This document shows positions 29,304 to 30,926 of a stretch of 64,000 nucleotides of DNA, in pieces. The notes beneath the pieces were generated by a model. The model ran no database searches, was not told the origin of the DNA, and saw nothing but the letters and a program-made list of their open reading frames with translations. The position numbers and the translations under genes were made by a program. This stretch comes from Spirochaetota bacterium (GTDB taxonomy: Bacteria > Spirochaetota > Spirochaetia > Treponematales > UBA12059): positions 62,001-126,000 of the forward strand of contig JAKLDN010000005.1 of assembly GCA_022703505.1 (NCBI GenBank), read 5' to 3'. How positions within the stretch are numbered: position 1 is the first letter of the stretch; every line of letters starts with the position of its first letter.

Positions 29304-29434
29304 GGTTGCCTCCGTCGGGCGAATGCGTAAATTTTTATCTATTGTACGGAAAACCGGCGGCCGAGGGAAGCCCCGGAGGCGGGGGCCGCCCTCCTTGTCC
29401 GGCCGCCTAGGCCGTGGTAGATTCCTTCCATCGG
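29304..29434. promoter_or_regulatory. Divergent promoter region between the DRTGG gene and the riboswitch
   Basis: An AT-rich island (about 29318-29350, with TTTTTATCTATTGTAC on the plus strand) probably holds the promoter of the minus-strand DRTGG gene (TACAAT on the minus strand). The promoter for the riboswitch transcript should lie between there and 29434, but I cannot fix it. Confidence 0.4.
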
Positions 29435-29548
29435 ACGGGGAGTAGCCCGCCGCCGGGCCGCGGGTCCGGCGGAAGAACCCGCCGTCAGGACGGAGCCTTC
29501 CCGGCTCCCGGCGGTTCGAGTCCCGGAAACGGGACGGGGCAAGACCGT
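29435..29548 (+). ncRNA. yybP-ykoY manganese riboswitch aptamer
   Basis: The layout fits the yybP-ykoY class. The closing stem P1 is ACGG (29435-29438) with CCGT (29545-29548). Just inside are the two invariant loops, GGAGTAGC (29439-29446) and GCAAGA (29539-29544). Between them are P2 (CCGCCG/CGGCGG), then AACCCGCCG pairing with CGGCGGTT around the conserved GTCA and a GGAGCC/GGCTCC hairpin, and finally GTCCCG-GAAA-CGGGAC just before the second loop. This class binds Mn2+ (with Mg2+) and usually turns on metal-homeostasis genes. A GC-rich stem (ACGGGCGCGCCCGT, 29547-29560) follows the aptamer and probably takes part in switching. The gene starts at 29628. Confidence 0.88.
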
Positions 29549-29627
29549 ACGGGCGCGCCCGTTTCGGCGCGTCGAGTACGGGTCCGTTCCCGAGCCGGAG
29601 CGGAGCCTTCGCGAGGAGGATGCCTCC

Positions 29628-30926
29628 GTGAAGATCTTCATCCTGGCCGTGGCCGCCGCCATGTACGGCCTGGTCATCGTGTTTCCCCACCGCAAATCCG
29701 TCGTCGCCCTGGCCTCTGCCGCCGCCCTCCTGGCGGCGGGATTCCTGATTCCCGGGGAAGGCGGACTGACCCTCCGCCGCGCCCTGCTGGAGCTGGTGAA
29801 CTGGAACATCCTGGCCATCTACGTCGGAAGCCTGGTGATCGCGGACCTCTTCATCTACTCCCGGGTCCCCGCGGTCCTGGCGGACCGGGTGGTGGAGAAG
29901 GCCCCGACCCTGGGGATCGCCATCACCGCCATCCTGGTGATCACGGGCCTGGTCTCCGCCTTCGTGGAGAACGTTGCCACCGTCCTCCTCATGGCCCCCA
30001 TCGCCCTTGCCATCTGCCGCCGGATGGAGCTGGATCCCGCCCCCTTCCTGATCGGACTCGCGGTGATGGCCAACCTCCAGGGCACCGCGACCCTCGTCGG
30101 GGATCCCCCCTCCATGATCTTCGCCAGCTATGCCGATTACGGATTCAACGACTTCTTCTTCAAGGACGGCCTGCCGTCCATCTTCTTCGCCGTCCAGGCG
30201 GGGGCCCTCGTGGGTGCGCTCTACTTCTTCGTGTACTTCCGGAAGCTCGGGAAGGTCCGGATGGACCTCCCCTACGAGCGCATCGTCTCCTGGGTCCCCA
30301 CGATCCTCCTGGTCGCGATGATCGCGGGACTGGCCCTGATCTCCTTCCTCTCCGGGGAGGGCCTCCACGCGACCTCGGGGCTCCTCTGCCTGGCCCTCGG
30401 CTTCGCGGGCCTGCTCTGGTTCGTGTCCATCCGGAGGGAGCCGGCCTCCAAGGCCGTGGACCTGGTGAGGCGCCTGGACTGGGAGACCATCCTCTTCCTG
30501 ATCGGGGTCTTCATCGTGGTGGGAGCCATCGGGGACGCTGGCATCCTGGACGACGTCGCAACCTGGATGAGCGCCGCGATCGGAGGCCGCGTCTTCCTGG
30601 GGTTCGCCGCCGTCGTGGCCGTCTCGGTCCTGATCTCGGGCTTCGTGGACAACGTGCCCTACATCATCGCCATGCTCCCCGTGGCCGGGAAGCTGGCCTC
30701 CTCCGCGGGGATGCCCGACGAGGTACTGATGTTCGGGCTCCTGATCGGGTCCTGCCTGGGGGGCAACCTGACCCCCTTCGGGGCCTCCGCCAACGTCGTG
30801 GCCGTGAGCCTGGTGAAGAAGGCGGGCCGGCACGTGGGCTTCCTGGAATGGGTCCGGATCGCGGGCCCCTTCACGGTGCTCACCACGATCGCCTCGGCCC
30901 TCTTCGTCTGGTTCGTCTGGGGCTGA
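29628..30926 (+). CDS. Ion-transporter-superfamily permease (ArsB/NhaD/CitM-like) under riboswitch control
   Basis: A 432-residue membrane protein with about 11-12 helices. The family hallmarks are present twice, once per inverted half: VSAFVENVATVLLMAPIA with ANLQGTATLVGDPPSMIFAS, and ISGFVDNVPYIIAMLPV with LGGNLTPFGASANVVAVSL. Relatives move arsenite, Na+/H+, citrate or other anions. The yybP-ykoY riboswitch directly upstream argues that this member handles Mn2+ or protects against it, a role not usually assigned to this family as far as I know. The GTG start at 29628 follows AGGAGGA. It converges with the DUF819 gene. Confidence 0.85.
   Translation: MKIFILAVAAAMYGLVIVFPHRKSVVALASAAALLAAGFLIPGEGGLTLRRALLELVNWNILAIYVGSLVIADLFIYSRVPAVLADRVVEKAPTLGIAITAILVITGLVSAFVENVATVLLMAPIALAICRRMELDPAPFLIGLAVMANLQGTATLVGDPPSMIFASYADYGFNDFFFKDGLPSIFFAVQAGALVGALYFFVYFRKLGKVRMDLPYERIVSWVPTILLVAMIAGLALISFLSGEGLHATSGLLCLALGFAGLLWFVSIRREPASKAVDLVRRLDWETILFLIGVFIVVGAIGDAGILDDVATWMSAAIGGRVFLGFAAVVAVSVLISGFVDNVPYIIAMLPVAGKLASSAGMPDEVLMFGLLIGSCLGGNLTPFGASANVVAVSLVKKAGRHVGFLEWVRIAGPFTVLTTIASALFVWFVWG

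Follow-up and report, generated by a model that had tools for sequence, protein, structure and literature searches.

A yybP-ykoY (Mn2+) class leader RNA upstream of an Ion Transporter superfamily permease in Spirochaetota

Introduction

The substrates of membrane transporters are hard to read from sequence; a riboswitch names its signal directly. MntP and the P-type ATPases are established Mn2+ efflux families in other bacteria, and the genes downstream of the yybP-ykoY riboswitch class are said to have been surveyed by Dambach and by Price, both in 2015. In the solved aptamers of this class, Mn2+ is held by five phosphates and by the N7 of an invariant adenosine, which is A41 in L. lactis and A48 in X. 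oryzae (PMC6754395). E. coli alx is reported to be Mn-responsive (PMC9603457), and yrbG is listed under the yybP-ykoY riboswitch in V. vulnificus (PMC13274385). Among the transporters that concern us, ArsB binds its neutral substrate As(OH)3 by means of Asn and Ser (PMC13381914). In a literature search, the two 2015 class-validating papers lying outside it, no link of the yybP-ykoY riboswitch to an ArsB/NhaD-type permease was found.

Such a combination was proposed, from the letters of the DNA, in the window considered here, that is, the whole stretch of 64,000 nucleotides that was analysed. The original prediction was a leader of the yybP-ykoY class controlling an ion-transporter-superfamily protein, the latter a candidate for a new kind of Mn2+ exporter. 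This work provides a computational analysis of the RNA, of the permease and of their association across the order.

The Locus

The source genome (3.66 Mb, 14 contigs) is GC-rich (70%); closest to it are metagenome bins that carry the label Spirochaetes or Treponema sp. The permease ORF is preceded by a leader about 200 nt long that contains GGGGAGUAGC and GGGGCAAGACC; its part at 29430-29554 is a four-way-junction RNA in which P1.1, P1.2, P2, P3, P4 and L3 are all present. The features of the locus are the following:

29395-29423, forward strand: putative sigma-70-like promoter read from the sequence, TTGTCC (29395-29400), 17-nt spacer, TAGATT (29418-29423)
29430-29554, forward strand: aptamer of the yybP-ykoY (Mn2+) class, alx-like L3 subtype, found by model R2
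29432-29438, forward strand: P1.1 5' strand CGGACGG, pairing with CCGUACG 29545-29551 (6/7 pairs)
29439-29444, forward strand: L1 5' side GGAGUA, with the 3' side AAGA at 29541-29544
29445-29448, forward strand: P1.2 5' strand GCCC, pairing with GGGC 29537-29540
29450-29472, forward strand: P2 hairpin, 10 pairs
29475-29517, forward strand: P3 hairpin with L3, UCAGGACG 29485-29492 facing C29508, inner stem GAGCC/GGCUC
29521-29534, forward strand: P4 hairpin with a GAAA loop
29545-29581, forward strand: competing hairpin, in which the P1.1 3' strand CCGUAC re-pairs with GUACGG 29576-29581
29614-29619, forward strand: Shine-Dalgarno sequence AGGAGG, 8 nt before the GTG and paired in a small hairpin to CCUCC 29623-29627
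29628-30926, forward strand: ORF of the Ion Transporter superfamily permease, GTG start, 432 aa, with CitMHS PF03600 and ArsB PF02040 matches

From the position of the predicted promoter, transcription is expected to start at about 29430, just ahead of P1.1. The promoter TTGTCC-17-TAGATT was not reported by a strict consensus scan; both congeners have similar hexamers at equal spacing, TTGCCC-17-TAGATT. On the reverse strand, a DUF819 membrane protein (PF05684, 30981-32129) converges on the permease gene.

Class Membership of the Leader RNA

The L1 consensus (GGAGUAGC / GCAAGA) is present in the leader and is flanked by P1.1 and P1.2, with GGGGAGUAGC at 29437-29446 and GGGGCAAGACC at 29536-29546. 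Both sequences had been described as two invariant loops; they are in fact the two strands of a single internal loop, L1, plus the adjoining pairs. The Mn2+-binding loop L3 (CGUCAGGACG..CCGG), of which the original prediction made no mention, is likewise present. Its UCAGGACG lies in the asymmetric loop of P3, and its consensus letters match those of E. coli alx (CGUCAUUACG..CCGG). The invariant, discriminator adenosine is kept as A29490, and the alignment suggests that this residue is equivalent to the Mn2+-ligand adenosine A48/A41.

The Rfam model of the class, RF00080 (177 positions, cut-off 45 bits), which had been suggested as a check along with the original prediction, gave no match to the window leader even at E <= 10, and Rfam scans of the window and the leaders, by gathering threshold and by E-value, assigned the window leader to no class. 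This silence is weak evidence because the positive controls fail as well: the mntP leader of E. coli reaches 41.6 bits, below the cut-off, and the alx leader is not listed. A second covariance model, R2, was built from eight leaders of other spirochaetes, the window and E. coli being left out. These are leaders of type B, one of the two L3 subtypes found when leaders were gathered by pattern and by orthology; the inner P3 loop tip of the training leaders was shortened to 12 nt so that the aligner kept register. R2 scores the window leader at 49.3 bits (E = 2.2e-10, 94 kb searched), the bias term for composition being 10.4 bits, and in the whole genome this leader is its sole match (E = 8.8e-9). 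The same model finds the E. coli leaders of mntP (39.1 bits, E = 9.3e-8) and alx (29.3 bits, E = 3.1e-5); it also recovers two mntP leaders from spirochaetes, with E of about 2e-6. The assignment to the yybP-ykoY class with all main stems is thus borne out by R2; the poor covariance score is limited to the narrow model of Rfam. In 150 simulated windows of equal composition there were zero matches to the full descriptor and zero to the two loops.

The type-B L3, seen also in E. coli alx, reads CGUCANNACG..CCGG, and the type-A L3 is shortened and reads UCAACA(A/G)CCGG..CUGG or UCAACAUACCCGG; the motif C-A-N-N-A is kept, its final A being the likely counterpart of the Mn2+ ligand A48/A41. In type-B leaders 90.1% of cells are paired, against 70.1% in shuffles, and 20 of the 29 pairs change on both sides; type-A leaders show covariation in 13 of 19 pairs. 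Model R1, built from type-A leaders, recognizes E. coli mntP (E = 5e-4) and gives the window leader only 11 bits (E = 1.6), since the latter belongs to the other L3 subtype.

In common with the RF00080 class and the alx and mntP leaders of E. coli, the window leader has the L1 letters, the P1.1/P1.2/P2/P3/P4 architecture and an alx-like L3 with its adenosine, and one model finds all of them. It differs in being GC-rich, in going unrecognized by RF00080, and in preceding an Ion Transporter permease rather than MntP or TerC. We regard the membership of the window aptamer in the class of Mn2+ riboswitches as nearly certain, and by homology the RNA would sense Mn2+. A Na+ riboswitch (DUF1646 motif), prompted by the fit of OadB and Ion Transporter genes, was rejected: that motif has two substructures, P1 and P2, against the four-way junction seen here, and Rfam gave no such match.

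A different possibility is that the aptamer is a yybP-ykoY variant whose ligand has changed to another ion, which the permease would handle. Variants with other metal ligands are called likely by the Breaker group (PMC7266159), and the type-A subtype, with its shortened L3, precedes Na+-linked genes. However, the L3 of the window matches that of alx, reported to be Mn-responsive (PMC9603457), and L1 and the discriminator adenosine are retained. Moreover, leaders of both L3 subtypes are found ahead of this one kind of permease, and MntP is preceded by an RNA closely related to type A. A changed ligand is considered quite improbable.

Expression Platform

Pairing of the P1.1 3' strand into a terminator is the usual ON design. 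The majority of the leader-bearing permease orthologues carry terminators built on this strand; in type-A leaders and in the type-B leaders L117, L120, L122, L125 and L126 it can pair into a terminator that has a U-run. In the window, the competing hairpin at 29545-29581 is followed by no U-run, so there is no intrinsic terminator, and the orthologue leader L118 has a similar arrangement, likewise without a U-run. Since the hairpin competes without a U-run in both, these two leaders probably exert their control at translation or by way of Rho.

The Permease

The permease contains GDPPS, ENVATVLL and DNVPYII, and the original description of it as an ion-transporter-superfamily protein agrees with both profiles and fold. 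The Pfam search gave only CitMHS (PF03600, E = 1.8e-55, 188.8 bits against a cut-off of 31.9), ArsB (PF02040, E = 1.2e-15, 58.3 bits against 22.2, a model broader than the NCBIfam ArsB) and DctM, with no match to CDF, MntP, UPF0016, P-type ATPase or TerC. None of the NCBIfam subfamily models reaches its cut-off: the best match is the magnetosome transporter MamN (83.7 bits against 500), the ArsB models stay far below theirs (58-65 bits against 415-760), and the NhaD model TIGR00775 gives 35 bits against 577. The permease shares its superfamily with the NhaD Na+/H+ antiporters and MamN and scores far under their curated cut-offs.

The AlphaFold model (mean pLDDT 87.5) has as its best fold match the ArsB structure 10tp (Z 42.9, 409 residues, 2.6 A, 18% identity), followed by NaS1, NaDC3, NaCT and others including VcINDY. 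The permease is, by profile and modelled fold, a member of the Ion Transporter superfamily (CitMHS/ArsB/DASS) with an inverted-repeat elevator fold. Its fold and paired hairpin-loop site are like those of the arsenite/H+ antiporter ArsB, but Glu114 and Asp341 stand at the hairpin tips, in contrast to the Asn/Asn/Ser pocket for a neutral metalloid. With DASS/INDY and CitMHS the permease has in common the fold and the Pfam CitMHS match; it differs in that the SNT tips of INDY/DASS are here ENV and DNV, the two serines being replaced by Glu and Asp, a change unfavourable for anions. E114 is nearly invariant among the orthologues and D341 invariant, and N115, N342 and N149 are also conserved.

Judged from sequence and modelled fold, a pair of acidic tips makes a cation the more likely substrate, and would be compatible with Mn2+, Na+ or H+. 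The tips speak against citrate or Mn-citrate as the substrate: the suggestion of a Mn-citrate carrier becomes less likely because Glu and Asp occupy the places of the SNT serines of the DASS anion carriers.

Distribution and History of the RNA-Permease Association

The permease is present in 86 of the 149 genomes of the order, and R1 finds the RNA in 31 of the 149. A recognizable leader precedes the permease in at least 21 of the 86 genomes (15 by R1 and six further of type B). Absence of the leader upstream of orthologues, named at the outset as a finding that would tell against the prediction, thus applies to some of the orthologues and not to others. The leader-bearing orthologues belong to families f1, f2, f3, f4 and f12 and have both L3 subtypes; the link between RNA and permease is recurrent but patchy.

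On a maximum-likelihood tree of 39 permease orthologues, leader status is clustered (8 changes against 15.9 in shuffles). The window lies within a starred clade of eight, comprising six type-B leaders and two congeners without leader. Compared with window 29418-29630, these congeners (L009 and L010) keep the promoter and lack the whole leader, with the start codon directly after the promoter. Transcription in them would then begin on the GTG start codon or right beside it, giving a leaderless mRNA. A deletion between the repeats CCTTCC and CCTCC would seem to account for the losses. The window groups with one of the congeners (99/94), yet the deletion junction is common to both.

These losses raise the question of whether the leader of the window is itself a decaying remnant that exerts no control over the gene in this species. 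Its absence in the two congeners and its lack of an intrinsic terminator would agree with decay; on the contrary, stems and loops are all intact (P2, P3, P4 and L3 included), the competing hairpin is retained in L118, and the promoter is so positioned that the RNA starts just ahead of P1.1. We consider decay very improbable.

Genes downstream of the RNA were read from the loci of the R1 and pattern searches. The transporter families that follow it in relatives are, besides the permease, MntP in sister spirochaetes (L110-L114), a P-type cation ATPase (L067/L068), a Na/Ca exchanger (L073-L075) and, in several Treponema-like genera, an orphan OadB, a Na+-pump subunit. The permease shares with MntP the RNA class found upstream, MntP having it in the sister spirochaetes L110-L114, while the two protein families are unrelated. 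The genome of the window has its own mntP (G000:C10:232298-232768) directly after the upstream gene, and no leader of this class was found before it. Mutual exclusion of MntP and the permease was tested and rejected, as the two co-occur.

Proposed Function

The company that the RNA keeps, MntP and a P-type ATPase, is most simply read as a sign that the permease exports Mn2+, to which we give a chance that is even at best. The candidacy of the permease as a new Mn2+ exporter draws on this and on the recurrence of the pairing across families; what counts against it is that many orthologues have no leader, that the genome possesses MntP, and that the orphan OadB also follows the RNA. Alternatively, the RNA may sense Mn2+ and the permease be a Na+/H+ antiporter of the NhaD kind, or another carrier, induced to bring pH, Na+ or metabolites back into balance when Mn2+ is in excess rather than to export the ion itself. 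The superfamily includes the Na+/H+ antiporters NhaB, NhaC, NhaD and NhaE (PMC9408914), spirochaete switches of the class also precede the Na+-linked orphan OadB and the Na/Ca exchanger, and the acidic tips would fit Na+ or H+ no less than Mn2+. Against this alternative stand the weak match to the NhaD model and the occurrence of the RNA before MntP and P-type ATPases, both of which are Mn2+ exporters elsewhere. It is held to be unlikely, with about one chance in its favour for every three against.

The class of the RNA, its recurrent pairing with the permease, the fold and the acidic site are results of the computation; from them we infer Mn2+ sensing by this RNA, the ON direction in this genome, the substrate of the permease and the direction of transport. 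According to the mechanism proposed, at high cellular Mn2+ the ion would dock L1 on L3 and stabilize P1.1. Otherwise, the P1.1 3' strand would enter the competing hairpin and keep expression down, this hairpin acting as an intrinsic terminator in most leader-bearing orthologues and probably translationally or through Rho in the window and L118. The permease would most likely move Mn2+, or a close cation, outward against H+ or Na+, as an exporter relieving Mn stress beside MntP. That a Mn2+-sensing ON riboswitch controls an elevator-type permease with acidic tips, exporting Mn2+ or a closely related cation beside MntP, is judged somewhat probable. More tentatively, and with the odds slightly adverse, the permease may found a further family of bacterial Mn2+ exporters, with an ArsB/INDY fold and ENV/DNV hairpins, controlled by the Mn2+ riboswitch across spirochaetes and unrelated to MntP, UPF0016, CDF, TerC and the P-type pumps.

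In this way, a well-studied class of switch points to a carrier subfamily without a known substrate that occurs in 86 of the 149 genomes of the order. If the permease exports Mn2+, manganese homeostasis would gain a new protein family, notably in spirochaetes, and the ArsB/NhaD/MamN branch a divalent-metal member. Surveys would undercount the class in such genomes, because the leaders are invisible to the current Rfam model.

Minor Observations at Other Loci

A stand-alone OadB (the beta subunit of the Na+-transporting oxaloacetate decarboxylase, PF03977) follows the leaders L055, L057, L063-L066, L076 and L142, with both L3 subtypes; we know of no Mn2+ role for OadB. At the OadB loci L147 and L148, the two that were read further, the ORFs alongside are differently oriented, and the decarboxylase alpha subunit was not recognized by eye. 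The hit L080 is apparently a chance match within unrelated sequence. The leader L104 (338-463) is of type A and has a terminator; it is separated by 337 nt from the first long ORF found downstream, whose product of 378 aa has the beginning of a lipoprotein rather than of a transporter. Finally, at L053/L133 (G321:C14:150625-153403) a single leader lies ahead of two tandem copies of the permease.
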